64,000 bases of DNA, taken from positions 55,837,581-55,901,580 of the forward strand of contig NC_088203.1 in assembly GCF_037126465.1 (NCBI RefSeq), written 5' to 3'. This document shows positions 4,598-63,853 of this stretch, piece after piece. The notes beneath the pieces were generated by a model. That model did not search any database and was not told the origin of the DNA. It saw only the letters and a list, made by a program, of their open reading frames with translations. Numbering within the stretch: position 1 is the stretch's first letter; every line of letters starts with the position of its first letter. Position numbers and translations under genes: made by a program. Source of the stretch: Ornithodoros turicata (taxonomy: Eukaryota; Arthropoda; Arachnida; Ixodida; Argasidae).

Positions 4598-7500
4598 TTA
4601 CCATTTGTTGTTTATGGCCCTCATAAGTGTAGGTCGGAGGTCTTGGGACGGTACATCAAAATGATTCACCTCAGATGAAAGAGCAGCTGTAGCAGCTGCA
4701 TCTGCGAGTTCATTCCCGGGTATACCCAAATGACTGGCTATCCAGCAGAATGTTAAAGAGAGACCCTTTTTAATTACCTTACCAGAAAGGCACTGTGCCT
4801 TCTGCACAAGGAGGTTTTTGAACATCACCATGTTGCCTATTGCTTGAAATGAGCTTAGAGAATCTGTGTAAATGACTGATGACTTGGTGTGACTTTCTAA
4901 GATGTAGTTCAGTGTGAGGATTATTCCGTATACTTCGGCATTAAAAACTGAGAGCATGTAGGTAGACGATATGACTGAGTGAATCCATCGGTTACCATTG
5001 CACATGAGACTGAGGTGCGTGTTTTGGAACCGTCAGTGTAAAAATCTGTGTTGCCCAAGACTTTCTTTAAGGGACTCAAACTCCTGCTGGAGCACAACAG
5101 GTGGTGTGTTCTGTTTCTTAAACATAGTCAGGGAGCTATTGAAACATGGAGGTGATTGCCACGGCGGGACCCGTGGGCTAGCCTGTACTATGGTGAAATC
5201 ATCATGTGGGAAATTGTAATCCTCACATCCCTGGAGAACGCGCATGCTAAATGGGGGAATAACGCTGGGTTTATTAAGAAAGAGCTGCTTGAAGCGTGTC
5301 CCTTTAACGCAGGAAATGACTGGGTTATTGGGATAGCCTCTTACCCTCAAACAGTACGAAGCAAACAAGTAAAATCTCCTTCTTTCCAGTGACCATTCGT
5401 TACTCTCAACATAGAGGCTTTCCACTGGGGATGTGCGGAAAGCACGAGTTATCAAACGCAGTCCCTGGTGATATACTGGGTCTAAAATCTTCAGGACAGA
5501 TTTCCGAGCAGACCTAAAGACAACACATCCATAGTCCATTCTGGACAGCACTGTGGACGCATAGACCCTGTGCAGAGTGTCACGATCTGCTCCCCAAGAT
5601 TTGTGGGACAGCATTTTCAATAGGTTTAGGGATTTCATGCATTTTGTTTTAAGGCTCTTGATGTGAGGTAAGAAGGTGAGCTTTCTATCAAGGATGACCC
5701 CGAGAAATTTGTGTTCACCCTTAATAGCGAGGTCCTGTCCGTTCAGCTTAAGAGCAGGTGGAGGAAACAGTCCTCTCACCCTCGAAAAATAAACACAAAC
5801 GGTTTTTTCATGTGAGAACCTGAATCCATTCTCATGGGACCATTTCGTAAGCTTATTTAAAGTTAGCTGCACCTGTCGTTCACATGTTGCTAGATTCGTG
5901 AAAGAGAAGGAAACCTGAATGTCATCAACGTACAGTGAATACGACATGGAAGGTGGAATTATTCTAGCTACTGAATTGATTTTCACTAGAAACAGAGTGA
6001 CGCTAAGGACGCATCCCTGCGGCACTCCATTCTCTTGGATGAAGGGACGGGATAGCGTTGCTCCGAGCCGCACTCGGAATGTCCTGTCTTCGAGGAAGTT
6101 TGTTATACACCTAAGGAGGCGCCCCCTGATCCCGAAAGAGTACATGTCTTGTAGGATACCGTACCTCCAAGCGGTGTCATATGCCTTTTCAAGGTCAAAG
6201 AACACCGACAGACAGTGTTGCCCACGGACAAATGCTTCACGGACCATTGTTTCTACTCGTACGAGGTGGTCAGTTGTAGAACATACAGCGCGAAAACCAC
6301 ATTGGAGTTCCGAAAGACATTTGTTTTCTTCGAGGGAATGGACCAGCCGAGCATTGACCATACGCTCAAACGTTTTGCCAATGCAACTCGTGAGAGCGAT
6401 GGGTCGATAACTGGCCGGGCTTGAAGGTTCCTTTCCAGGTTTTAACAAAGGAATTATAGTGGAAATTTTCCAGGCTGAGGGTAATTTACACTGAACCCAA
6501 ACCTGGTTAAAAAATTGCAGTAAAACCTCTTTGGGTGCCTCAGACAGATGGATCAGCATACAATACATCACCCTGTCTGGGCCTGGTGAAGTTGTCTTTG
6601 TACGCTTTAAGGAACGATTTAGTTCTACTTTGGTGAAAGGCTGATTATATATCAAACTGTCTCCGCACTGCATTAGAATTTTCTTCCTCTCTGCACTACG
6701 TTTTACTTTGAGGAACTCATTGCTGTAGTTGGAGGAAGAGGAAACACTTTCAAAATGCTCACCAAGAGTATCAGCTTGTTCCTGTAAGCTTTGACATGGC
6801 TGACCGTTAACTACTAAAAGAGGAGTAGCACGGCTCATGTGTACACCTCTGATCTTATGAAAGCGATCCCACATAAGTTTAGAAGGAGAATTGAAAGACA
6901 GGGATGATACAAAACTGTGCCAAGAGGACCGCTTGGCTTGCTTGCGCGTCCACCTGGCTTTGGCTCTTGCCTTTTTGAAGAGAACAAGGTTTTCACTGGT
7001 GGGGTATCTCAAAAATCTACCCCACGCCCGATTCCGAGCTTTTCGTATTTCTTCACACTCTTTGTTCCACCAGGGTTTTGGTCGCTTAGGCAAGCGACCA
7101 GAAGTTTCGGGAATACATTGTGTTGCTGCGTCAAGGACGACATTAGTTATGACACGGTTTGCTTCGTCAGTTGTCATCCTATCAACAGGGATTAAAGACA
7201 GGTCGCATTTTTCAGAAAAAGTGTTCCAGTCGGCTTGTTCTAGTTTCCACCTGGGGGGACACGTTGTCAAGATATCTACCTGAGGCAGGTACTTCAATAC
7301 CACTGGAAAGTGGTCACTTCCCAATGGATTCTCTTTTACTGACCACTCTAAAACTCCAAAAAGCGATGGACTACATAGAGACAGATCTAATGCCGAGAAA
7401 TATTGTGTAGCGGAATGTACATATGTAGGAGACCCTGTATTCAAAAGACAGACGGAAGATGATAGCAAGACTTTTTCTATCATCTTTCCCCGACAGTCGG

Positions 7501-7934
7501 TCCTTGTACTACCCCAGGGTGGGTTGTGCGCGTTAAAATCGCCTAAAAGAATGAAAGGAGTTTGAAGTTGGCTGCATAGACCTTCTAAGTCGTTTTGCGT
7601 GATGGATGCTGTTGGCGCCAGATAAACAGAGCAGACAGTGACTACTCTGTCCAGGCACACCTGCACTGCTACAGCTTCGAACTGTGTATTGAGGTTAACT
7701 GCCCTGGATGGAACAGACGCTCGTGTGACAATCGCCACACCTCCAGATGAACGATTCGTGTCATTTCGATCCTTTCGGAATATGTTGTGTCTACGTAAAG
7801 GAGTTGGGGAGGTTGTATTCAAGTACGTTTCCTGGAGACAGAAGCATGCTGCATTGTAGGTATCAAAAAGATCATTTACTTCATCTAGATTTGAAAACAA
7901 ACCACGGCAATTTCACTGGAGGAAGTGGTTCATA
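4598..7934 (-). pseudogene. LINE A ORF2 (endonuclease-RT-RNase H), nearly intact
   Basis: A continuous 955-codon frame (7900-5033) covers most of the protein. Endonuclease motifs are CFCLQETYLN, GGVAI, LLGDFNAHN and GSDHFPVV; RT motifs are SYRPIALTS, FFDLEKAYDTAW, NGVPQGCVLS and SLYVDDIQVS. The normal LQWNCRG start is broken: TGG (W) reads TGA just after a likely ATG at about 7934. A frameshift near 5040-5060 separates RT from RNase H, whose FYTDGSKT and later AEVY and TDSLS residues are visible down to 4598. Further frameshifts hit the C-terminal zinc segment (about 4250-4590). RT carries YVDD rather than YADD. It is probably inactive. Confidence 0.88.
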
Positions 7935-9056: not shown

Positions 9057-9420
9057 TTAACAACCTAGATAAGACCCTGTTGCCTTTTCTCGTTTCAGCC
9101 AGATCAAAATCCCCACTGACCCACAAGGACGATGAGCCCACTCCTGGACCTGACACAAAAGCGCTCTGGAATTTCCCCAATTGACAATCGCCAGGTGGCG
9201 GGAATTTCCCCCAACCGACCACGTCATTCTCAAGCCCCTTATCAGCCTCGTGGCCACATTTAGCTCTTTTGTCCCGAAGAAGGCGGAGCATCCGCCGTAA
9301 CGTAGACATCCTCCCTAACTTTTATAATTTTTAAGTTTTAATAAACCCCTTTTTTGTTACTTCCTCTACTTTCGTCTTCTGTCTCCCATTTATTTCAACT
9401 ATATATATATATACTATTTT
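9057..9420 (+). other. Possible Penelope-like 3' remnant with decayed hammerhead-like hairpin
   Basis: No ORF is supported. At 9275-9305 there is CCGAAGA, a perfect GGCGGA/TCCGCC stem (9282-9287 with 9291-9296), then GTAACGTAG. That is the layout of Penelope-associated hammerheads with two core substitutions (U4 to C, and GAA to GTA). An AT-rich end with AATAAA (about 9340) and an (AT)n run at about 9400 follow. This reading is tentative. Confidence 0.3.
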
Positions 9421-9590
9421 CGATTTGTATATGTACTTGCTAGCTTGCAGTGCGGCCTCCACAGGTGACGCCGCCACCGTGGAACATTCATGCCTCGCCG
9501 AGGCACACTGTCAGCGCCGACCCAAGATCGTGTCACTTCCCTGCGCCCTGCTGAAGAGCTCTAAGTAGAGCGAAACAGCTGTCCTCGGCT
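9421..9590 (+). mobile_element. Solitary partial 233-bp retrozyme unit
   Basis: This stretch is collinear with the monomers at 11003-12234, from GTATATGTACTTGCTAGC through the GCCGACCCAAGATCG segment to the ribozyme. It covers about 170 of 233 bp. It is about 1.4 kb from the array and is not tandem. Confidence 0.8.
9544..9590 (+). ncRNA. Hammerhead ribozyme, stem I damaged
   Basis: The core CTGAAGA (9551-9557), stem II GCTC/GAGC (9558-9561 with 9568-9571), GAA (9572-9574) and the GTC cleavage triplet ending at 9583 are all present. Stem I reads GCGCCCTG against CTCGGCT, so two pairs near the core are lost. It is expected to be weak or inactive. Confidence 0.65.
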
Positions 9591-11002: not shown

Positions 11003-11031
11003 TGCCGACGCAAGATCGTGTCACTTCCCTG

Positions 11032-11078
11032 CGCCGGGCTGAAGAGCTCCAAGTAGAGCGAAACAGCTGTCCTCGGCG
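11032..11078 (+). ncRNA. Hammerhead ribozyme, unit 1
   Basis: Stem I CGCCGGG (11032-11038) pairs with CTCGGCG (11072-11078, one G-U). The core CTGAAGA is at 11039-11045. Stem II is GCTC/GAGC around loop CAAGTA. GAA is at 11060-11062. Stem III is ACA-GC-TGT (3 bp, 2-nt loop). Predicted cleavage is after C11071 in GTC. Confidence 0.88.
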
Positions 11079-11264
11079 GGGAGTGCACGATCAAATTACA
11101 AACATATGCTCAACGTGCAGCTACAGAGCTTCGGCTATTTCCTATTTGTATATGTACTTGCTGGCTTGCACTGCGGCCTCCACAGGTGACGCCGTCACCG
11201 TGGAACATTGCTGCCTCCCCGAGGCACACTGCCAGCGCCGACCCAAGGTAGTGTCACTCCCCTG

Positions 11265-11311
11265 CGCCGGGCTGAAGAGCTCCAAGTAGAGCGAAACAGC
11301 TGTCCCCGGCG
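11265..11311 (+). ncRNA. Hammerhead ribozyme, unit 2, fully Watson-Crick stem I
   Basis: It matches unit 1 except that the 3' stem I strand reads CCCGGCG. This turns the G-U pair into G-C, so the pairing is kept. Predicted cleavage is after 11304. Confidence 0.88.
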
Positions 11312-11497
11312 GGGAGTGCACGATCAAATTACAAACATATGCTCAACGTGCAGCTACAGAGCTTCGGCTATTTCCTATTTGTATATGTACTTGCTGGCTT
11401 CCACTGCGGCCTCCACAGGTGACGCCGTCACCGTGGAACATTGATGCCTCGCCGAGGCACACTGTCAGCGCCGACCCAAGATCGTGTCACTTCCCTG

Positions 11498-11544
11498 CGC
11501 CGGGCTGAAGAGCTCCAAGTAGAGCGAAACAGCTGTCCTCGGCG
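11498..11544 (+). ncRNA. Hammerhead ribozyme, unit 3
   Basis: Sequence and pairing are identical to unit 1, with an intact core and GTC. Predicted cleavage is after 11537. Confidence 0.88.
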
Positions 11545-11730
11545 GGGAGTGCACGATCAAATTACAAACATATGCTCAACGTGCAGCTACAGAGCTTCGG
11601 CTACTTCCTATTTGTATATGCACTTGCTGGCTTGCACTGCGGCCTCCACAGGTGACGCCGTCACCGTGGAACATTGATGCCTCGCCGAGACACACTGTCA
11701 GCGCCAACCCAAGGTAGTGTCACTCCCCTG

Positions 11731-11777
11731 CGCCGGGCTGAAGAGCTCCAAGTAGAGCGAAACAGCTGTCCTCGGCG
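11731..11777 (+). ncRNA. Hammerhead ribozyme, unit 4
   Basis: Ribozyme sequence is identical to unit 1 although the neighbouring unit sequence is of the other type. Predicted cleavage is after 11770. Confidence 0.88.
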
Positions 11778-11964
11778 GGGAGTGCACGATCAAATTACAA
11801 ACGTATGCTCAACGTTGCAGCTACAGAGCTTCGGCTATTTCCTATTTGTATATGTACTTGCTGGCTTGCACTGCGGCCTCCACAGGTGACGCCGTCACCG
11901 TGGAACATTGCTGCCTCGCCGAGGCACACTGTCAGCGCCAAACCAAGGTAGTGTCACTCCCCTG

Positions 11965-12011
11965 CGCCGGGCTGAAGAGCTCCAAGTAGAGCGAAACAGC
12001 TGTCCTCGGCG
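11965..12011 (+). ncRNA. Hammerhead ribozyme, unit 5
   Basis: Core, stems and GTC are intact as in unit 1. The spacing from unit 4 is 234 nt. Predicted cleavage is after 12004. Confidence 0.88.
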
Positions 12012-12197
12012 GGGAGTGCACGATGAAATTACAAACATATTCTCAACGTGCAGCTACAGAGCTTCGGCTATTTCCTATTTGTATATGTACTTGCTGGCTT
12101 GCACTGCAGCCTCCACAGGTGACGCCGTCACCGTGGAACATTGCTGCCTCGCCGAGGCACACTGTCAGCGCCGACCCAAGATCATGTCACTTCCCTG

Positions 12198-12234
12198 CGC
12201 CGGGCTGAAGTGCTCCAAGTAGAGCGAAACAGCT
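12198..12234 (+). ncRNA. Truncated, mutated hammerhead, unit 6
   Basis: The core reads CTGAAGT (the invariant A9 changed to T), and the unit stops at GAAACAGCT without the cleavage triplet or the second strand of stem I. It is inactive by inspection. Confidence 0.8.
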
Positions 12235-15401: not shown

Positions 15402-18400
15402 CTACAACTCAATAATGATCCCGACATCTCTACAAAACTTAAAAACATTATCAAACGGAACGTGAGCCTTATCACCCAGCAGCAATGCTGGATGCAGAGG
15501 TACACAGTGTTCATAGAGGAAAGAAAAATTGCGTTGACGATGTACCTCGAGAAAAGGACAGCTAATAAGTAGATGCAAAATTGACAGGTCAGCTCCACAC
15601 TCTGTGCACGCTGGTGGGCCCTCTCCTCGTAACAAATGCCCATGGGTCAAGAAAGTATGACCCAATCTGAGCCGACTAAACAAAACTTCGTGCAGTCGGC
15701 TCTGAAAGTGTTACAGGCACTTTCCAATGTGCGGTTTTACGGTGTCCAACTTGTTGACTGTTTGTGTTTCCCAGAAGTCCTGCCATTTTTTATTAATGTC
15801 TCTCTTTAACTGACGGACTAGATCACATAAGGGAACTTCAAAAGGTGTGACATCGCTTCCCTGGGCAAAGGCTGTCGCGCGGTCAGCTTTCTCATTTCCA
15901 CATATGCCGACATGGCTAGGTACCCAGCAAAATGTTAAGGTGTAACCTCTACCCTGTACGACACTCGCTAAGTATTGTGCACGCCTCACAAGAAGATTTT
16001 TGTGAGTTTTTATAGTATTAATTGCATGCACGGCACTAAGTGAGTCTGTATATATAACAGAAGATGTTATGCACATTTGTAAGACATGGTTGAGTGCCAC
16101 CACAATAGCGTACATCTCTGCACTGAAAATGGACAGGACACTGCTAAGACAATGGGATTTTGTGCAGTCACCAGACACCATGGCACATGATACCGCTGAA
16201 CTGGTCTTGGATGCATCGGTGTAAATTTCAGTGTGGTCACCGAAGCTCTCCTTGAGAAATTCAAATTCGTGCTGTATCTCAACAGCAGGTCTTTCCCGTT
16301 TGTTGAACTTCAACAGTGAAATATCATACGTTATAGCAGGTTGCCAGGGAGGGAGCATTTTGCTACATTGCAAGGAAGGCAGGTTGTAGCTCAGAAAAGC
16401 GTAGTGTTCGGTGTCGCGTTGTAACCGCAGACTGAAAGGCACAACAGCACTGGGCTTGTTAAGAAACAACCGTTCAAAACAGGTGCCCTCCACACAGGGT
16501 AAAGCGGGGTGTTGAGGATACCCTCTTACCCTCAGTCCGTACGACACTGCAAGATAGAAGTGTCGCCTTTCTAGAGACCACTCATTTGCTTCAACATATA
16601 GACTTTGAACTGGGGAAGTCGTGAAAGCTCCAAGTACCAACCTTAAGCCGAGGTGGTGCACTGTATCCAGGCATTTTAAGGCAGAAGGCCGTGCTGACCC
16701 ATGAACAAAACATGCATAGTCTAACTTGGAGCGCACAGTGCTCGTATATATGCGATGAAGGGTCTCACGATCGGCACCCCAAGACCTGTGTGACAGGATT
16801 TTCAAGATATTTAAAGACTTGAGGCCCTTTGCTTTTAAGTTTTTGATATGCGCTGAGAAGGTGAGCTTTCTATCAAAAGTTACTCCCAGGAACTTGTGTT
16901 CATCCCGAACGGCAATATCCTGGCCGCTCATTTTGAGTGTGGGTTCTGGGAATAGACCCCTAATTCTTGTAAATAGAATACAAACCGTCTTGCTCGGTGA
17001 AAACTTAAAGCCGTTTTCACACGACCACTTGTCTAACTAGTTAAGAGTCAGTTGAAGCTGTCGCTCACAAACAGCCAGACTTGAAGCTGAGCAGGACATT
17101 TGCAAATCATCAACGTACAAGGAATACTTGACTGATGGCGGCATAACGCTTGCAACGGAATTCACTTTCACTATAAACAGTGTAACGCTGAGAACGGGCC
17201 TTGTGGGACCCCGTTCTCCTGCACGAATGGGCGAGACAGTGTAGCTCCCAGTTGGACCCTGAACATACGTCCTTGAAGGAAGTTTGAGATACAACGGAAC
17301 AACCGGCCTCATGTTCCCAAGGAGTGCATGTCTCTTAGTATGCCGTAACGTCAGGTTGTATCGTAGGCTTTTTCGAGATCGAGAAATATGGAAACACAGT
17401 GTTGCCTCCTAATAAATGCTTCTCGTATGGTAGTCTCTAAGCGCAGGAGGTGATCTGAGGTAGAACGGGAGGATCTGAACTCACATTGGTACTGGTCAAG
17501 GCATCGATTTTCCTCCAGGTAGTATATAAGCCGGGCATTGACCATGCGCTCGAAGGTTTTTCCAAGGCAGCTGGTCAGGGCAACAGGCCTATAACTCGCT
17601 GGATCCGAAGCTTCTTTGCCAGGTTTGAGAAGAGGAATGATGGTCGCCATTTTCCAGCTGGTAGGCAAGGATCCTTCTCGCTCGACCAGATTGAAATAAT
17701 CAAGAAGGCTTTCTAAAGAGGTAGTTGATAAATGACTGAGCATAGAATAAGTGGTACGATCAGGGCCAGGTGCTGCGACTTTACGGCAGCACAAGGCTCT
17801 GAGCAATTCTTGCATTGTAAAGGGCTGGTTATAGGCACACCTATCACCTGTGCCACTTGAAATGTTCTGTTTTTCGGCATGATGTTTAACTCTCAAGAAG
17901 TTATCAGCGTAATGTGAAGAGCTTGACACATTTGCAAAGTGTTCACCGAGAACATTGGCTTGCTCCTCCATGTGCTGACAAACAGTACCATTTACCTGCA
18001 GTAAAGGAATAGAAAAACTGATATAGTCACCCTTAATTTTTCTCAACCGGTCCCATATTATTTTAGAAGGGGTGCTTGAGTTCAGGGACGACACAAAATT
18101 ATTCCAAGGATCTTTCTTGGCTTGACGCCTTGTCCAACGTGCCTTTGCATAAGCTTTCTTGAAAAGAAGTAACTTTGTGCTTGTGGGGAATCTCCTGAAA
18201 ATACCCCACGCCCGATTTTGTTGCTTGCGAGTCTTCTCGCAGTCACTCGTCCACCATGGCTTTGGACGTCTTGGAAGGTTACCTTTTGTTTGTGGAATAG
18301 ACTGCTGAGCAGCATTTATAATAGTATTTGTAATTACAGTGTTTGCCTCGTCAACATGAAGATGTTGAAAAGATTGGGTCAAGATATTGGCCTCTTTGGT

Positions 18401-19198
18401 GAAAAGGTTCCAGTCTGCCTTTTGTAGTTTCCACCGAGGCGGGCGTGTTGCAATATTGTTGGTGGGGCCACGAAATGTGACAACAATTGGGAAATGGTCG
18501 CTACCACGCGGGTCGTGATCCACCCTCCAATCTAAAGAGGAAAAAAGGGAAGGACTGCAAAGAGAGATATCAATAGCAGAGAAGGATTGTGTTGCAGAGC
18601 TTAGGTAGGTTGTTGACCCTGTGTTTAGGAGGCAAAGTGACCTTGAAAAGAGAACTCTCTCCACCATCTTTCCTCGGCTATCAACCTTTGCGCTGCCCCA
18701 CAAGGGATTATGCGTATTGAGGTCGCCTAAAATCATCAAGGGCTGAGGGAGCTGATCAATTAACTTTTCAAACTCTCTCTGACCGACGGAAGTTGAAGGA
18801 GGAAGATATAATGAACAGACAGTTATAGTCTGTTCAAGACACACACGGACAGCAACAGCTTCTAGGTCTGTTGTAAGCGGAATATTCATTGCAGGTACAG
18901 AGCGAGGAAGGGCAATGGCTACACCACCCGACGAACATGCTCTGCCTACACGATCTTTTCGGAATATATTGCACCTACGAAAGGGGTTTAAATTTTCTGG
19001 ATTTAAGTAGGTTTCCTGCAGGCAGAAACAAGTTGCATTGTGTTCCTCAAACAAGTCGTTAACGTCATCCAAGTTAGAAAAAAGACCTCGGCAATTCCAC
19101 TGAAGTATGGTGCCAGCACCCATTAGGAAGGTAAGGGAGGAAAAAAGTAGCAACGACTTTGTCATAACTTGGATGTGTAACTTGGAGTGTGTGGGCAT
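15402..19198 (-). pseudogene. LINE B ORF2 (endonuclease-RT-RNase H-zinc motif), broken
   Basis: It starts at ATG 19198, 11 nt after the ORF1 stop, and shows ILQWNCRGLFSN, CFCLQETYLNP, LGDLNTHNP and GSDHFPIV (endonuclease), then SYRPVALTS and FLDLEKAYDTT. In-frame stops follow at W and R codons near 17340 and 17300, both explainable by single transitions. A frameshift in the NGVPQG region (about 17215) precedes SLYVDDLQMSC. A stop near 17038 precedes the thumb, RNase H (IYTDASKT, AEMYAIV, YTDSLSA, HVGICGNEKAD) and a C-terminal CTECGADLSILHLLISC zinc motif ending at 15402. Confidence 0.88.
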
Positions 19199-19760
19199 GA
19201 AAGTTTAGTTTAGGGAGGAGTAATTCTCGGTGGAGGCATTTTCGGTGTCTCTTTTACTTTCTTGCCCCTACCTCTGCTAGCCGTTTTCTCTCTTTGCTTT
19301 TCCAAGAGAAGAAACACCTGACATACTGGAGGACGACTTCTGTGACAGAGAGTCGTCGTCCTCCACCTCCATGTTTTGTTGTGTATCTTGAGACGAGGCC
19401 TGTGTGGCCCCGTCCCAAATAGACTGCGTGCCGTCAGCTCCACAGGAAGCTGAGGCAGTGTCCTGGCTGCTCGTCCGGCAAGCCAGGGAACTTGGAAGGG
19501 ACACTTCCGTGTCCTGCTTTTCGTGTTGGGGGGTGTGGGGTGGAGGCTCAGACGTTTGAGTCTCCACTGAAACTCTGAGTGGTGCCACCACCCTGCGCAC
19601 CACCTCAGAGAAAGTACCTTTTCTTTGAAATTCAACCTGTGCCTTCGCCGCCCTGTATGTTATGTTTTGCTCTGCCTTTACTCTCAAGATTTGTTTCTCC
19701 TCTTGCCAACGTGGGCACGACCTGGAGTACACTGCATGCCCACTCTGACAGTTTGCGCAC

Positions 19761-21646
19761 TTTATTTATTTATTTTTTTTTTTCATTTATACTTCTAGCG
19801 TCTTAGACGCCAAAAAAGGAGTGGGATTACATACACACGGAGAAACATCTTGCTCCGTAGCAGCCGCGGATATACAGAAAATTTAGATGAACCACGAACA
19901 CATGTATATACCATATATCAAAAACAATCTACACACGCATACAACCTTCACATAAGATTACAACAAACGTAGCAGCACACTCTACCTACAAATTTGCGAT
20001 CGCCAGCATAAAACTCGACAAGGTGTCACACCGTACCATTTCCTCCGTCAGTCCGTTCCATGCCTGAATGGACAGCGGAAAGAAAGAGTACATAAGGCGG
20101 TTAGTCCTAGAAAATAATTGTTTTATGGATTTGCTATGTTTCGTTCGGTGGCTACCAGTTGTGTTAAATGTAATATAATCAGAAGGCCTAATACAGGTAT
20201 GGTTATTTATTATGAGCCATAGTAGCTTAAGTCGCTGAATTCGAGTCCTTTGATACAATGGTGTCAGTCCCGCGAGGTGGAGTAATTGCGAGGGGGAGTC
20301 ATAACGCGAATATCTGCCATAAATAAATCTAACAGCTCTTCTTTGGATCATTTCAAGCATATGTATTTTGTTCTGCTGCTCAGGGAACCATACCACCGAA
20401 GCGTAGTCCATAACTGATCGTACTAGTGCTTTGTATGCAATTAGCCGCGTGTGAGAATCTGCGTCGTTTAAGGTCCTACGTAAATAATTGAGGCGGGTAC
20501 CGGCCTTCCGAACAGTCTCTGTTGTATGGCTATTCCAGTTCAAGCTGTCGGTAAATGTTATACCTAGATATTTATAATTTGATACTCGATTCATTACTGC
20601 ACCGTTTATAGTATAGTCATGTATCAACCGAGACCGTTTTGTAGTCACGCTCATAACTACGCTTTTGCTCCTATTAATGCTCATTTGCCATAGGTCACAC
20701 CAGCTCAAAATTTTATTTAATGATAACTGCAGAGCTTCATGGTCGTCTCCTGAAGATATTTCACGGTATAACACACAGTCGTCCGCGAACAACTTGATGT
20801 TAGCACTAATGCCTTCAGCAATGTCGTTAATAAAAGTTATGAATAGTAATGGACCCAAAACTGAACCCTGAGGGACCCCAGAAGTGACCGACGTCATAGC
20901 TGAAGGGCTGTTTTCAAAACTGACAAACTGGAAACGATCAGATAGGTAAGACTGCAAACAACCACATAGCTTGTCGTTTTTAAAGATGGCCTTGACCTTG
21001 AGTAGAAGTTTAGAATGTGACACCTTGTCGAAAGCTTTTTCAAGGTCAAGAAATATAACATCAGTTTGTTTGTTTCGATTAACGGAAATAGAAAGGTCGT
21101 GTACAAATTCGACTAACTGGTTTACAGTACCTGAGCCAGATCTGAAACCATACTGATAACGAGAAAGAAGTTTGTGTTCCGCAAGGTACGAAGCCATGTG
21201 TTTGCTAAGAATGTGTTCGAATATTTTGCAGCTTGTCGACAAGAGAGAAATAGGTCGATAAGACTCAACATCCCTTGCTGCCTCTTTCTTGGGAACTGGT
21301 ATTACCTTTGCAACCTTCCAATCAAACGGTATCTGACCTGTTGTGTAAGCTCTAGTAAATATTATTTGGAGATACAGGGACACCCAATCGGCGTATCTTT
21401 TCAAGAAGTGATTATCAATCCCGTCATAGCCTGGACTCTTCTTTACATCCAAATTTCGGAGAAGAGAAAGTATGCCCTCGCTGCAAGACAAAACGTCCTT
21501 CATAGCAGGAAAACCATGACTTGCAAAGGAAGGGACAATTCCGTTCTCCACCGAAAAGACGGAAGAAAAATAGGCATTGAAAGTATCTGGAAGGTACTCA
21601 TCAGATCTTGTCATAATTTGGGTTTGAGGTGCTTTCTTAGGAGCAG
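19761..21646 (-). mobile_element. CR1/L2-like LINE, 5'-truncated, nested in LINE B ORF1
   Basis: The minus-strand insert ends in an AAATAAATAAATAAA tail at 19761-19775 and starts inside its ORF2 near 21646. The flanks share a short GCA(C)TTT-like overlap, compatible with a short or mutated target duplication. The split lies exactly before the third zinc knuckle of the LINE B ORF1. Confidence 0.8.
19986..21646 (-). pseudogene. Reverse transcriptase of nested LINE, long open frame, N-terminus missing
   Basis: A 550-codon uninterrupted frame carries the RT blocks in order: KSPGYDGIDN, KVIPVPKK, YRPISLLS, YQYGFRSGSGT, FLDLEKAFDKVSH, SGVPQGSVLGPLLF, FADDCVLY and YLGITF, then an RT tail (WNSHTTETVRKAGTRLNYLRR). 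FADD and the lack of an RNase H domain separate it from LINEs A-C and fit the CR1/L2 group. The endonuclease is absent because of 5' truncation. The frame's lack of stops suggests this insertion is younger than its host LINE B. Start choice is arbitrary (the fragment is open at its 5' end). Confidence 0.85.
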
Positions 21647-22865
21647 GCATTTCTTTAAGGCATTTTGGCACGAGTCAGAAGAATGGTTTGTCCATGCACA
21701 TTTTGGGCAAACAGCCTGACCTCGACAGACCTGCGAGCCGTGCCCAAACCGTTGACACTTAAAGCAGCGTCTCGGGTTGGGGACGTACGGTCGCACGGAC
21801 GTACGGACGTATTGGGCTGCTGACATGACCTGCTTTGATGCTTGAAGGCAGCTTATGGAGTTCAAAGGTGAGAACGACATGTGGTGTGGATATTTCTTTT
21901 CCTTCTCTGCGGATGATGATCCTGTTAGCATTGATTACCCCATGGTCCTTTAAGCCCTCCGTCATCCCTGAGTCAGAACATGGTAGCAACTCACTGGCAG
22001 ATATGACCCCTTTCACTGTGTTCAAGCTACGATGTACTGTGACAGAAACTGGGGTTTCTCCAATGGTCTTTAGTGAGGAGAGTGTTGTACTTTGTTGCCT
22101 AGTTTGTACCTCGACCTGTATGTCTCCGGTGTTCAGTTTCCTGGCGTTGTAAGACTTCCTGACTACTTGTTGAGTGTCTTAGCCACAAGAAATGGAGACA
22201 GCCCTGCAAACGACTTTGTTTCATTCTCTGCATCTATGACTAGGAATTTAGGAAACCACGGCTCTTGACCGCTTTCAAAGAGGCTCATTGCATTGTCTTC
22301 GGTGCGGTGCCGCTTTGGGCGCCGATCAGTTTTTTTGGAATTTGATTTATCCATAAAGAGTGAATGTTGAATTCAGTGCAAAGGGTGTGTCGGCCACCAC
22401 CGACCCTAACCAAGGGAACGTGTCTCACACGTTAACACTTGCCTGTGCACTATACTCCAGTGCAGCTTCTGGAGGGTGAAAGACTGCCCAAGGTTGACCC
22501 TTGCCGCCAAAGAAGGTGAAAAGGAAAGTGAGAGGCTGAAGAACTAGAGAAAGAGAAAGCAATGAAAAGAGAGATGGCGACTAGCTGAATAGTCCTGGCC
22601 GGGCCTTCCAGGACCACCCGTCTATGGGAAGAAGAGGCCAAAGTGGTGTATTGCTTTCCCAGAGGGGCCCCGAGGGGTCCAAAACAACCTCTGGTTCAAC
22701 TCAACAACCAGGATCCCCCTTTCCCCAGACACGGGACAGCCACGCACAGCTATACGTGGGGGTCTCCCTCCTGCGGCGACCCAACCGTGAGTGCAGGAGG
22801 GGGCTACTGCGGCTGTTGCAGGGTGATGGGGGCGCCAAGTTCCCGACGCCGGGGCATCGAAACGC

Positions 22866-35069: not shown

Positions 35070-35926
35070 GTCTCACATTTAACGATAAAGTGCAGTTATT
35101 GGATTTTGATAATCACTTTTTTGGTATAAGGAATTTCAGTACCTCGTTTGGTCGCGGAGAAATGTTTTTTTGCGAAAAGTGTACGCGGGGTTTTACAACA
35201 CCTTAAAACCTAGTGTCACATAGGAGAGTGTGCAGGAATTCTGAGGAGGTTTTGTTGGAGTTCCCTGAGCCGGGTAAGAATGTTCTAAAATTTGACAAGT
35301 TTGGTCACATGTTTGCATTTCCATATATTATTGGACTCGGTACAGAGTCCGTCCTCAATCCTGACACGAACGTGAAAAGTGCTGTGCAGACGCATGTTAT
35401 AAGTTCCTTCTGCTACATTCTAATCATACCATACGATTCGAAAATACTTGCAAATGAAAAATATTTAGGCCCCGATGCCGCTTCCAGGTGTATCGACTGC
35501 CTGTTACGTTTTCATAACAAGGTGGTCGATATCAGTTGTTGCCCTGCCGCCATTAAGATCACAGACAAAGAAACTCGTAAACATATCGCTGCAACGCACT
35601 GTGATTATTGTGGTGTGTTATTTAGTGTTAATAGGAAAAAGGTTCATCATCACGATCACAGTCGTGAAAGCAGTGTCAGCAACTTTTTGGCTAGCATTTG
35701 TAACGAATGTAACATCAGTTGCAGCAATCACGGCAAAATTCCAGTGCTCATCCACAACCTTCAGTATGACATCAGCTCCCTACTGCATTGCTTCCACGCT
35801 TTGAAGTGGAAGCGACCACCAAAGCTCATCGCGACGAGTTCGGAGAAGATTCGGAACTTTGAATATGGCAATCTCATATTCAGGGACACCACCAGATTCT
35901 GTAATATCTGCAACGTAAAAACTTGA
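35070..35926 (+). pseudogene. Protein-primed type B DNA polymerase N-terminal remnant (Polinton/adintovirus-like)
   Basis: Frame 1 has a CX2C finger (FFCEKCTRGF) followed by a stop near 35204; the second frame continues with HRRVC, PGKNVLKFDKFGHMFAFPY, a broken ExoI position (GLGTES where a D-x-E is expected), a Cys/His cluster (CDYCGVLF and HHHDHS, then ICNECNIS) and the ExoII-like IPVLIHNLQYD. The frame ends at 35926 with no polymerase motifs. This order is that of the exonuclease half of Polinton-type PolB. The copy is clearly dead (frameshift, lost acidic residue, truncation). Confidence 0.65.
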
Positions 35927-46314: not shown

Positions 46315-49300
46315 TCACAGATCCTTTAAAAACCCGGTATCTCTAAAAAACATATAGATCTTTTCAAAGGGTATAAAACTTTCATCGCCCAGCAAATGCG
46401 CCGGGTGGAGTGGTAAGAAGTTTCTATAGAATAAAACAAAATGACGTTCACGAAGATGCTGATACGCTGGGCATACAATGAGGATATGGAGGATTGAGAG
46501 TTGTTCCCCACAGTGATTGCACTTGGGAGGGTCTTCTTCCCGTAAGAGGTATCCATGTGTTAAGTATGTGTGTCCCAAACGGAGCCGACAAGATAGCACC
46601 TCATACAGTCGATTGGATGCAGATGGAGAAGGGCCTATCTTGGGTTTTATAGCATGTACTTTGTTGTTTGTCTGTTGGTCCCAAAAGCTCTGCCAGTGTC
46701 TGTTAATGCTGCTTTTTAAACATGAGATCTTTTGATGGAATGTCGAAAGTCGTAATGTCGTTTGTTAGGGCAGCAGCAGCTGCTCGATCGGCCTTTTCAT
46801 TTCCGGGTATCCCAACATGGCTGGGTACCCAGCAGAACAGTAACCGATAAGCCCTGTTAGCTATAGTGCTTGCAATGCGCCTTGCACGATGGACAATGGG
46901 GTCTTTTGTGCAATGAATGCTACAGGTAGTCTGTAAGGAACTCAAAGAATCTGTGTATATGACTGATGATTTGATACGATTTTGTAAGATATAATTGAGG
47001 GCTAAAATTATGGCATACACTTCCGCTGTGAAGACAGACATGGTGACCTTCAAACGATGTGACCTCTAACTGTGCCAGTAACCATAGCGCACGATACCCC
47101 GGAAATAGTTTTGAGCCATCAGTGTACAACTCTACATGGCTGCCAAAGCTATCCTTTAGCACTTCAAATTCCTGTTGCAGGACAGTGTTAGCAGTTTCAC
47201 GTTTGTTGTATCTGGAAAGGGACGTGTTGCATTTTGGAGGGGGCTGCCATGGGGGGATTTTCTTAGTTGTCTCAAGGATCATAGAGTTGTACTCTGGAAA
47301 GCCATAGTGTTCTACTGCTTGTGACATTCTAATACTAAAAGAAGACACAGCTGAAGGTCTGTTCAAGAAGTGCTGTCTGTATTGTGTATCTGTCACACAT
47401 TGATATGCTGGGTTCTCAGGGTGACCTCTGATTCTGAGTGCATATGACGTTGCGAGGGAAAACCTGCGTCTCTCTAAGGACCATTGATTCGATTCTATAT
47501 AAAGACTTTGTATCGGAGAAGTTCTGAAAGCTCCAAGAACTAAACGCAGTCCTTGGTGGTGTACTGGACTAAGGATTTTGAGTGTAGATGGCCGTGCTGA
47601 GCCGTACACAGCACATCCATAATCCAATTTGGAAAGAACAGTGGAGACATAAATCTTCTTGAGTGTGTCACGATCTCCTCCCCAGGACCGGTGAGAAAGC
47701 ACTTTTAGAAGATTTAGAGCTTTGATGGCCTTTACCTTGAGGTGTTTGAGGTGAGGAATGAAAGTCAATTTCCGGTCAAATATAAGCCCAAGAAATTTAT
47801 GCTCAGGCTTTACAATAATGTTGTGGCTGCCCATTTTAAGTGTTGGTTCGGAAAACACCCCCCGTACCCTAGAGAAGTAGACACAGACAGTCTTCTCCGG
47901 GGAAAACTTAAAACCGTTTTCGTGCGACCATTTGACCAACTTCTTTACTGTGAGTTGAAGTTGACGTTCGCACCTAGCAATGCTGGAAGAGGAACAAGAA
48001 ATTTGTACGTCATCCACATACAGTGAATACCTGACTGATGGAGGAATGGCACTTGCTATGGAGTTCATCTTTACAATGAAAAGAGTCACACTTAGGACGG
48101 ATCCTTGCGGTACACCGTTCTCTTGTATGAATGGGCGAGAAAGTGTCGATCCAACCTGGACCCGAAATAACCGTCCTTGAAGGAAATTGGCAATGCTGCG
48201 AAACATGCGGCCGCTTATTCCCAGAGTGTGTAGGTCCTGCAGAATACCATACCGCGAGGCAGTGTCGTACGCCTTTTCGATGTCGAAAAATACGGACACA
48301 CAATGCTGCCTTCGGACAAATGCTTCTCTGATGGCAGTCTCTAGCCGCAGCAGGTGATCTGTTGTCCAGCACGCAGCTCTGAAGCCACTCTGGAATTTAT
48401 CGAGTCATTTATTTTCTTCAAGGAAATACATCAGGCGATCATTCACCATGCGCTCAAAAGTTTTCCCTAGACAACTTGTGAGTGCTATGGGTCGATAGCT
48501 GGAGGGGTTTGAGGGGTCTTTTCCGGGTTTTAGCAATGGAACAACGGTTGCCACCTTCCAGCCAGACGGAAGACAACCCTCTCGCCAGACAAGATTAAAG
48601 AAATCAAGAAGGGATCCTAAAGATGTGGAAGATAAGTGCTGGATCATGGAGTAGGAAACACGATCCGGACCTGGTGCTGTAACTTTACTGAATGACAGAG
48701 CCCTTCGAAGCTCAGTTATTGTAAAGAGAGAATTGTATGCATACTTTTCACCACCCTCGCTTGGAATCGTCTGCTTCTCAGCAGATGATTTTATTTTCGA
48801 AAAATCACTGCTGTAGTGAGCTGAGCTGGATACATGTTGCATATGCTCCCCAAGGGCATTGGCCTGCTCTTCCAAACTCTGACAAACTACGCCATTTACC
48901 TGCAGTAATGGGACAGAGAAACTTGAGTAGTCTCCTTTGATTTTCCTTAGCCTGTCCCATATAAGTTTTGAGGGAGCGTTACAATTTAAAGACGATACAA
49001 AATTTTTCCAAGATTCTTTTTTCGCCTGTCTTCGTGTCCAGCGTGCTTTAGCACGTGCTTTTCTGAATGCCACTAAGTTTGGAGTAGTGGGGTGCCTTCG
49101 AAAGACACCCCACGCCCGATTTTGTTCTTTGCGTGTAGTTTCACAGTCGCTCGTCCAACAAGGCTTGGAGCGCTTAGGGAGTCGACCGGATGTTTGTGGG
49201 ATTGACTGTTGAGCGGCATTTATAATAGTGTCAGTAACAAGATTATTGGCATCTTCTATACTTAAACCTTGGAAAGATGTTAGGATATTGGCCTTCTCCT

Positions 49301-50088
49301 TGAAGAGAGTCCAATCGGCCTGTGACAGTTTCCACCGAAGTGGACGTGTACCTAAGGTATTTGTGGTATTATGTAGTTTCATGACAACCGGAAAGTGGTC
49401 GCTACCCCGAGGATTCTGCTCTACTGCCCAGTCAATGGTTTGAAACATTGATGGGCTGCACAAGGAGAGGTCGATGGCAGAGAAAGATTGGTTAGCGCTG
49501 CTTACATACGTAGGACTTTGTTTGTTTAGAAGGCAGATAGACCTAGAAAGTAATATGTTTTCCAGCATTTTTCCTCGCCGGTCGACTCTCGAGCTGCCCC
49601 ATAAACAGTTATGGGCATTAAAATCTCCCAGTAAGAGGAAAGGCGGCGGGAGTTCGTCAATTAAAGTTTCGAGAGTGTTCTGAGCAACCACAGCTGATAG
49701 TGGCAGGTATACGGAACATACAGTTATGACCCCTTGAAGACATATTTGAACGGCAACTGCCTCGAGTGCTGTTTTTTAGTGGAAGGTGCTTTGCAGGGAG
49801 GGTTTTTGAAGTCAGGATAGCAACACCTCCAGATGTACGTGTTGCATCAACCCGATCGTTTCGGAACAAGTTCCATCTCCGTAGTGTATGTGTTCGATGT
49901 GGATTCAAATAAGTCTCTTGTAGTGCAAAACAGAGTGTGTCATACTTGTCCGAAAGATCATTGACATCATCAATATTAGTGAGAAGCCCTCGACAATTCC
50001 ATTGAAGGATCGCCATAATATTGATAAACGTTTGCACAAGAGGCGTTTCCGTCATAGGGAAGAGACTATGGTGTAAAGAAACTTTCAT
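46315..50088 (-). pseudogene. LINE C ORF2 (endonuclease-RT-RNase H-zinc motif), frameshifted
   Basis: ATG 50088 overlaps the ORF1 stop by one base (TAATG). After 24 residues come MAILQWNCRGLL and CFALQETYLNP. A frameshift at about 49775 precedes LLLGDFNAHN and GSDHFPVV; another near 48405 precedes FFDIEKAYDTAS, NGVPQGSVLS and SLYVDDVQISC. RNase H shows ELYTDGSK, frameshifts at about 47050-47110, AEVYAII, YTDSLSS and HVGIPGNEKADRA. The C-terminal zinc motif is CNHCGEQLSILHILIVC, ending at 46315. Few lesions suggest a recent insertion. Confidence 0.9.
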
Positions 50089-55265: not shown

Positions 55266-55845
55266 AAGATGTCGGCGATGTCCTCAACCGTACGGGTGGA
55301 ATGTGTGCCCCAGCAGCAGAACTTGTATGATGGCCCGTATTTCCCGCATAGAACCCAATCACCGCCAAGCCCCGATAGCTGAGAAAGAGATTGCTCAAGT
55401 GGAATTAACATTTACAAACACGCAACAAACGAAGCCAATGGATAGCGCGAAACCTCATCTTCCTCTACTTTTACTAACAGGCCGATAGGTCTACTTCTTT
55501 TTCGTCGTCCCAGCGGGAAGCTCATGCAACGGTACCGCCGGAAGTTGACTTGTTACACCCAGTCAGCGTTTACCAGCGCCGCAGCTCTTCCTTGTTTCAC
55601 TCAACGTACGTGATGGAAGTACAGATCGCCAGCCCGTCGCGCGGTGCGCGCGTAAGCATTGAGAAATAACGATCTGACGCCATTATGTGCGCAGGCGCCT
55701 CTTATTCCATTCAAATCCTCTGTGTTCATATGGAAAACAATAAAAGAAATCTGTATAGCTTCATGTAGAGGGATGATCATGACCAGTCTGTCCGTGTCCA
55801 CCATTTTGAGAGAGAATTCTGAACATAGGTTGCTGCTTGCATCCT
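55266..55845. other. No recognised gene
   Basis: Short ORFs only, none with a domain or splice context that I can support. Confidence 0.4.
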
Positions 55846-56186
55846 CTGCTAACTGTTGTCATGACAGCCAGAAAGCGCACTGACTCGGGCCATCGAAGAA
55901 AGCAAAATGTCGTTGTGTCTGTTATTTAAGTCCTGCGAGCACTGCTGATCACTGCCTTCATTGCTTGACGCTTGTGTACCCTGCTAACTGTTGTCATGAC
56001 AGCTAAAAACGCACTGACTCGGGCCGTCGGAGAAAGCAAAATATCGTTGTGTCGGTTATCTAGGTCCTGGAAGCACTCATGATCACTACCTTCATTGGTT
56101 GTCGCTTGCGTACCCTCCTACCTGTTGTCATGACAGCTAAAAACGCACTGACTCGGGTCGTCGTAGAAAGCAAAATATCGTTGTGG
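55846..56186 (+). repeat. 134-bp tandem repeat (about 2.5 copies) just upstream of a start codon
   Basis: CTGTTGTCATGACAGC followed by GCACTGACTCGGG and GAAAGCAAAAT recurs from 55846, 55981 and 56115. The last partial copy ends 15 bp before ATG 56201, so the repeats lie in the promoter or 5' UTR of the next gene. Confidence 0.8.
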
Positions 56187-62240: not shown

Positions 62241-62843
62241 AGGGACTATGAAATTTCCCGAACCCCCATACTTTTTTTCGATGGAAACTGTTCTTCCCGC
62301 AGAGAAACTAATATGCCACAAATTTTTCCGGACGAAATCGCTCCACTCTGCGAGGAGCGCGCGCTGGAAATGTCTCTTCCGCGTTCCTCCTCTCCCGCGC
62401 ATCTTTCCCAGCCGATGGTGTAACTGTACGGACCGCACTTCGGTTCCCCGTTACGTCACCGGTGTTTAATGCCGCGAGCTCGCGCTGTGGCTGCCGCCAC
62501 TGCCTAAATCTGCCGATCACGCGAAAGCTGCCGTCATGGAGATTTCCACTCCCGATGAACGCATACGCGGGATCCTACGGCGCATGCTCCTGGCGGGATT
62601 CCTCGGCTCGGCGACACGTCACGATGACGTGTTGCTGAGCCGGCCGTGGTCGCGTCAAGTAGCCCGTTGTGTCTCCGCTCGGCAGCCCGCCACGGCGCGG
62701 CGCAGGCTGTCCTCCCTTCGCCGCTCCGTTTAAATTCGCTCCCGAGAAATCCGCTCGCGCGACGAAAGTAAAATTTCGGTTCTAGACTCAGAAAAATGTC
62801 TTCTTTCGAACGAAACGAAGAAAGAAATCGTTTCATAGTCGCT
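62241..62843. mobile_element. 603-bp TTAA-flanked MITE inside the palindrome arm
   Basis: TTAA at 62237-62240 and 62844-62847; inverted ends AGGGACTATGAAA and AGCGACTATGAAA. Removing it restores the left arm to match the right arm (GCTGTTCGAGTAG side), so it postdates the palindrome. Confidence 0.82.
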
Positions 62844-62847
62844 TTAA

Positions 62848-63853
62848 TACCATGAAGTCTGAATTTTTGCAAAGAAAATAAAGCTTGAACAGCGCTACGT
62901 TCGTAGCACTGTTCAAGCTTTATTTTCTTTGCAAAAATTCAGACTTTATGGTATTAAGCTGTTCGAGTAGAAGAGACTTTCCTTGCTCGCTTAAGATAAA
63001 TTGTGTATCCCTGTCCTGTGCTTTCTTCACGCAGGGACAATGCAAATGAGTATTTAGCATTATGCAATAATTATCTGATAGCAGAAATGGGTGTCTTTGT
63101 CACAGCTTATTAGCGTGTGCGTCGTTATTTATTTATTTTTTCTCTTATAGCTATGCGAGCAAAAGTGCGCGTAATTTTTCGCTGCTCTTTTCTTATTTTC
63201 TCTACTTTTATGTAGAAGAGAGCGTCCTGCGTAAAAGCTGAATAGTGTTCTATCAGTGGGGTTGTTTGTTTGATTTTGTTGGGTGTTCGATATCTTGACG
63301 AAGTAAGCAGTGCTTAATTTTGCAGGTTTTTGAGCAGAAATGCTGGTATCTGAGCACGGAGTAGAAATTTCTATATTTCTCTGCTCCCTAAGAAAATTTG
63401 TACGTCGTTTTCCAAGCAGACCGCGTTTAGTTTACGCGAAATAGAAAAATGAAGTTGTGTATGCTCTATGATGATCCGCCGCAGGCTTAGGCCTTTTCCC
63501 CGATGAGCAGTGTTTTGTATGCGATGTCGCATGTCTGGACTTGTTCAGTAGTGTTGCAATTTTTACCCTTCGCTAATATCTTGTTGCTGTCGTCTTGTGT
63601 TAGACATTGAGTTTCGTAGCGATGTGCGGTAACGCTACGATTATTCCTGAGCGCTCCGTGTGTTTAATGCGTTGTCCTCTGTGCGTGCATGCGTGTGCTT
63701 TTTTCCTGATTTGTGACGTCATCATGGCATGTCTGGACTTGTTTAGCCGTGTTGCAGTTCTTCCCGCTGCTAGTATCTTGTTGGTGCCATGTTGTGCTAG
63801 CCGCGTGGCGATGTGTGGTGACCTGAGGTCTTAAGCCTTTTCCCTGCTCACCT
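62848..63853 (+). repeat. Palindrome centre and right arm of X-module inverted repeat
   Basis: The inner arms 62848-62909 and their complements meet at about 62911 (GCTACGTTCGTAGC) with almost no spacer. The right arm then runs to 63853 and stops at the start of another repeat. Confidence 0.85.

Follow-up and report, generated by a model that had tools for sequence, protein, structure and literature searches.

The window, which is the whole stretch of 64,000 nucleotides that was analysed, was found to carry on its plus strand a tandem array of units with predicted type I hammerhead ribozymes. A partial copy of the same family, of which the preliminary description had made no mention, was located between this array and a sequence resembling the 3' untranslated region of the Penelope-like elements (PLEs) of this genome. 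The features considered here were as follows:

9272-9311, plus strand: match to T1, a 3' untranslated motif of the PLEs of this genome (blastn map)
9400-9413, no strand: (TA)n tract separating the PLE 3' end from the partial copy (sequence map)
9414-9589, plus strand: partial copy of the window family, with a sub-threshold hammerhead at 9545-9589 (RF00163, 28.3 bits against 34; blastn map)
11004-12234, plus strand: tandem array with a period of 233-234, comprising five full units and part of a sixth (Tandem Repeats Finder, Rfam)
11033-11077, plus strand: type I hammerhead of unit 1, cut after 11071 (RF00163, 35.1 bits)
11100-11107, plus strand: AAACATAT, unit position ~105 (unit 1 shown), the first site where copies elsewhere abut (TA)n (sequence)
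11145-11153, plus strand: TTTGTATAT, unit position ~151 (unit 1 shown), the second site where copies elsewhere abut (TA)n (sequence)
11266-11310, plus strand: type I hammerhead of unit 2, cut after 11304 (RF00163, 35.8 bits)
11499-11543, plus strand: type I hammerhead of unit 3, cut after 11537 (RF00163, 35.1 bits)
11732-11776, plus strand: type I hammerhead of unit 4, cut after 11770 (RF00163, 35.1 bits)
11966-12010, plus strand: type I hammerhead of unit 5, cut after 12004 (RF00163, 35.1 bits)

The array at 11004-12234 was described by Tandem Repeats Finder with a period of 233, 5.3 copies and 95% matches. The hammerheads were called by cmscan using the Rfam Hammerhead_1 model (RF00163) with its gathering threshold of 34 bits, and all five full units reached this threshold with scores of 35.1-35.8 bits. 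The sixth unit was partial and stopped at 12234, short of its own cut site. The preliminary description had reported five units with an intact core, stem II, a 7-bp stem I and a GTC triplet; each of these elements was seen, and the covariance-model search that it had set as a refuting test returned hits above the threshold. The spacing of 233-234 nt that it had given for the cleavage sites was reproduced as well, the predicted cut sites being 233, 233, 233 and 234 nt apart.

The hammerhead consisted of a CTGAAGA...GAA core with the GTC triplet, a 7-bp stem I including one G-U pair and extending outward beyond a small bulge, and a four-pair stem II (GCTC/GAGC) closed by the loop CAAGTA. Helix III could be drawn either as two pairs with a palindromic AGCT tetraloop or as three pairs with two bases. 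It had been taken earlier for a minimal, Penelope-like stem III, a claim that had to be given up: helix III and loop II matched the canonical invertebrate type of PMC7229834, according to which a two-pair helix III with a palindromic tetraloop is typical of invertebrates. Minimal hammerheads lack helix III and the loop-loop contacts, whereas the two-pair helix III with its tetraloop and the loop II CAAGTA were present here. Since the hammerhead was of the canonical and not of the minimal Penelope type, a dependence on dimers was not implied. In unit 2, CCCGGC was found instead of the CTCGGC of the other units, by which the G-U pair of stem I became G-C. The change had thus been reported correctly, but being one-sided it was weaker evidence for selection than the two-sided changes recorded between arrays.

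The units were arranged head to tail without a central region, and no LTR-centre-LTR layout was seen. The GC content of four window units was 56.0-57.1%. When folded as circles, the units were 58-61% paired with energies of −74.3 to −82.7 kcal/mol, and 25 mononucleotide shuffles per unit gave averages of −63.2 to −68.9 kcal/mol. The linear fold of a unit had a z value of −1.69, and an equally stable fold was obtained in 10 of 200 dinucleotide shuffles; hence, the RNA structure of the unit was only modestly more stable than that of the shuffled sequences. Protein coding round the circle was rejected, as four stops per frame occurred within three turns in the two units tested.

The preliminary description had proposed a candidate retrozyme, and a retrozyme-type hammerhead repeat was judged to be the right reading. 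PMC7229834 describes metazoan non-LTR retrozymes as small units of 170-400 nt, repeated in tandem, in which a canonical type I hammerhead is present and LTRs are absent; they occur as anything from single copies to long arrays, contain no coding frame and share their genome with PLEs, and in all of this the repeat was alike. A GC content below 50% is given for them as a trait and not as a definition, whereas that of the window units was 56-57%. Metazoan retrozymes are further characterised by the absence of a primer-binding site and polypurine tract, by target-site duplications that exceed 4 bp where they occur, by a highly self-paired unit RNA, and by self-cleavage with circular RNA in tissue. 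Plant LTR retrozymes, as presented in PMC4918200, likewise contain hammerheads, are non-autonomous and presumably move by way of circular RNA; unlike the window array, they have type III hammerheads placed in LTRs, a primer-binding site, a polypurine tract and 4-bp target duplications. A retrozyme of the tick Argas monolakensis is already in print (PMC4918200, legend of Fig. 7). The array was assigned to this known kind, the animal retrozyme, within which its 233-bp family may be new. The arachnid-like origin suggested for the DNA was reasonable and the host is probably a tick, as the named sequences closest to the PLE protein came from Ornithodoros turicata (58% identity) and Ixodes species, and those closest to a LINE protein from Ixodes ricinus. 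The tick lipocalin model PF02098, however, had a single match, which contained two stops.

A search of the genome (1.07 Gb, 379 contigs) with a half-hammerhead pattern of the window family, designated family A, gave 1,625 matches with one mismatch allowed and none for the reversed control. Copies were thus present at many other places, the absence of which had been named in advance as an outcome against the retrozyme. Two other hammerhead families, B and C, were also present. Family B was 71-76% identical to family A over 82-149 bp and had a GTACTG/CAGTAC stem I. The family C hammerheads were spaced near 290 bp and gave 10,772 pattern matches (control 0). Family C, the more numerous, often adjoined copies of the window family, as in the loci L009 (5036-5639), L014 (3352-3938) and L054 (779-1101). 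By eye, a stretch common to families A, B and C (L009, L031 and the window), resembling CGTGCAGC.A.AGA.GC together with TGGCTT.GCACTG, was noticed immediately 3' of the start sites, where it may serve as a promoter or as a binding site.

Covariation was assessed in a set of 59 hammerheads, of which 56 were taken by the core pattern, no locus contributing more than two distinct sequences, and the remaining three, from family C, were added by position; the stems played no part in the selection. Altogether, 92.9% of the cells were paired and 10 of the 15 pairs had changed on both sides. The observed values were reached in none of 500 shuffles, and a control in which the partners were slid while relatedness was kept gave 31-45% pairing. 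The helix III pairs were formed in 59/59 and in at least 56/59 copies. Among 101 distinct cores, stem II was GCTC/GAGC, GTCC/GGAC, GTTC/GAAC or GGTC/GACC, and the triplet was GTC in 70 and GTA in 31.

These data bear on the view that the repeat is an ordinary satellite DNA with a chance hammerhead, which was spread by unequal exchange and segmental duplication only and passed through no RNA stage. We considered this unlikely. The two-sided changes preserved stems I and II, which is hard to explain without selection on RNA, and single or short copies as well as dispersed junctions at fixed unit sites also spoke against it. On the other hand, the arrays were long and homogeneous, and the locus L022 carried a repeated 649-bp block comprising array and flank. 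The search for target-site duplications at 20 loci, a set that did not include L026 (no flanks), L028 and L029, gave best matches of 1-7 points with mismatched borders, none of which was accepted, and this fits a satellite too. Further, an array of about 36 units (L011, G000:C3:107181365-107189745) had GCA in place of the core GAA in at least 27 of them, and thus a part of the amplification needs no ribozyme.

The ends of families A, B and C and of three PLE tails were mapped on retrieved loci, which had been picked by similarity, GIY-YIG score or list order and not at random; L001-L008, L026, L030-L033, L057 and L058 were left out as repeats of others or as having no usable ends. Tracts of (TA)n with n of at least 4 were recorded at the 3' flank in 30 of 71 rows and at the 5' flank in 4 of 75 rows before the removal of repeated events. 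After L039, L045 and three segmental copies of L022 had been removed and two ends at N runs set aside, such tracts stood at 28 of 63 3' ends versus 4 of 67 5' ends, the other 35 of the 63 3' ends having no (TA)n. The background frequency per 38-nt stretch was 0.16% for the window and 0.8-2.0% for three other regions.

Of the 50 rows with a family A 3' end, 10 ended at unit positions 103-108, 11 at positions 138-151 and 29 at scattered positions. For the ends flanked by (TA)n, seven of eight in family C fell at unit positions 27-31, in GAGTATCT, and three of four in family B at positions 117-127. Genome-wide junction counts, in which two mismatches were allowed, amounted to 316 for unit position 105 followed by (TA)n (control 50), 241 for position 151 followed by (TA)n (control 1) and 8 for the mirror junction of (TA)n followed by position 105 (control 0).

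The (TA)n tracts might instead have originated from slippage of TA-rich sites inside the units and not be insertion targets at all. A (TA)n expansion of this sort, within a unit at a TA-rich site, was indeed present in L011. However, a tract produced by slippage should be bordered by unit sequence at either end, and the strong bias of the junctions at position 105 towards the unit-(TA)n direction, along with the narrow range of the family C ends, made this explanation highly improbable.

The hammerhead cut site followed by (TA)n was counted only 5 times (control 3), and the linear hammerhead product was rejected as a template on this ground, for the (TA)n insertions only. The avoidance of the cut site by the (TA)n junctions argues that the copied RNA was circular or uncut. 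In addition, single copies such as L047 ran from position 105 back to 39 and so spanned the cut site at 69/70, which implies that the template, whether a circle or an uncleaved transcript, was continuous there. Insertion of a DNA circle that had been opened at a single point was set aside, because the unit positions at the 5' and 3' ends were mostly non-adjoining; the loci fitting such an insertion were L019 (145/151), L011 (47/38) and, by eye, L016.

The copies were also often paired. In 40 of 78 rows a neighbour lay no more than 90 bp from the 5' end, and in 34 of the 40 it had the opposite orientation; 15 distinct head-to-head junctions were left once repeated events were removed. Family C pairs within 600 bp comprised nine head-to-head and one tail-to-tail among the first 100 matches listed. 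The same layout was recorded for the PLEs: the best 150 of 3506 candidates from a GIY-YIG search included 34 head-to-head, one tail-to-tail and no same-strand neighbours within 10 kb. At the locus L046 (G000:C2:6431300-6440000) two intact PLEs faced each other head to head, the outer 3' end of each adjoining (TA)n, and each had open frames of 928 and 277 codons and a repeat at both ends. In one of these copies the frames matched RVT_1 and GIY-YIG, and GDSL lipase. The lipase match (PF13472, 1.1e-8) belonged to the 277-codon frame, which preceded the RT/GIY-YIG frame; in other animals, some PLEs are reported to have esterase frames (PMC5408684).

A (TA)n tract with n of at least 4 was present within 45 nt of 24 of 36 PLE tails, and the 12 tails without it included the two internal repeats of L046. 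Some tails ended at CCCCTATC and others ~42 nt further at GTAGCG, two endpoints that resemble the optional tail of other PLEs as described in PMC11167929. The T1 motif found in the window was located downstream of GIY-YIG frames in this genome as well, and the sequence between 9312 and the (TA)n tract of the window resembled the remainder of a PLE tail, but gave no blastn match. The possibility that the PLE tails were minimal hammerheads (CTGAYGA..GAAACGTC) was dropped, as the one tail tested had no Rfam hammerhead match. No PLE frames were detected beside the arrays in L030 and L031 among frames of at least 120 aa.

LINEs can produce inversions of their 5' parts through twin priming. A retrozyme moved by LINE machinery, with (TA)n priming and twin priming yielding the inverted pairs, was weighed as well, LINEs being abundant in this genome (7528 candidates from an endonuclease search). 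The best 150 of the 7528 had one head-to-head, one tail-to-tail and nine same-strand neighbours, so that no head-to-head excess (1/11) was seen, in a control that was blind to twin-primed fragments. The retrozymes had their pairing and their (TA)n 3' ends in common with PLEs, and several retrozyme pairs had (TA)n ending both halves (L014 and L028, with L052 having one). Taken together, a LINE helper appeared quite improbable.

PLEs have been put forward as a strong candidate for the retrozyme helper, since type I hammerheads and tandem copies are features of both and the two co-exist (PMC7229834), and the proposal, made from co-occurrence, is repeated in PMC7761336 and PMC11722881. According to PMC11167929 and PMC3846280, PLEs have AT-rich targets, internal starts with an optional tail, head-to-head and tandem copies and, in many cases, hammerheads, and in these respects they are alike to the repeat. 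The window repeat differs from them in carrying no reverse transcriptase or endonuclease, and in its canonical hammerhead. In PMC11167929, the PLE protein of the anole cleaves AT-rich DNA, elongates both strands and begins reverse transcription inside its RNA. The head-to-head arrangement is the commonest one among PLEs according to PMC3846280, where another cause, self-priming, was proposed for it.

Based on the mapped ends and the paired copies, we infer that PLE machinery would reverse-transcribe circular or uncut retrozyme RNA at (TA)n. The window array itself is probably a copy of an animal, and probably tick, non-LTR retrozyme, the family of which was probably moved via this machinery at (TA)n. 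We somewhat favour the fuller proposal that PLEs act in trans to move the retrozymes of this genome, by means of (TA)n-primed internal starts on circular hammerhead RNA and of cDNAs fused head to head. The arrays would be transcribed and the multimeric RNA cut by the hammerheads, after which a host RNA ligase may circularise the monomers; alternatively, some of the multimers may remain uncut. The PLE reverse transcriptase and GIY-YIG endonuclease would open a (TA)n tract, and the exposed 3' ends of the broken tract could serve as primers at A/U sites within the retrozyme RNA. Copying round the circle would give a multimeric cDNA, and two such cDNAs, one from each side, may join 5' to 5', which would result in inverted pairs flanked on their outer sides by (TA)n. 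Subsequent expansion at the DNA level would apply to some long arrays.

The PLE-like target, 3' start behaviour and inverted pairs were found in the retrozyme family and not in the array of the window, which terminated at unit position 66 and had no (TA)n, inverted partner or target duplication at its borders.

The insertion footprint, that is, (TA)n 3' junctions and head-to-head pairs common to retrozymes and PLEs, is new here. In the open-licence PMC literature no report of (TA)n junctions common to both was found, and (TA)n 3' junctions with head-to-head pairs were not found described for retrozymes. With insertion scars common to the two, the question of which machinery copies such RNAs into DNA becomes directly testable, and the common target, 3'-end behaviour and inverted layout can be counted in any animal having retrozymes and PLEs. 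If true, the proposal would mean that insertion sites bear witness to the helper long suspected for animal retrozymes, and the ribozyme and the ligation would serve to supply a template without ends.

Several other features were recorded in the window. A 239-codon open frame at 35207-35926 on the plus strand had no Pfam match at 0.001, and a second tandem repeat with a period of 134 and 2.6 copies was located at 55835-56185. Matches to miRNA families on (TA)n tracts and hairpins were all under their cut-offs. One of them, a sub-threshold MIR4208 match (55.5 bits against 140), was to a long hairpin at 62842-62958 on the minus strand, which is probably a small inverted-repeat element. LINE-like open frames were present on the minus strand at 5033-7912, 15711-19204, 19986-21674 and 46920-49775; all three that were scanned matched RVT_1, and one of them also matched endonuclease models.
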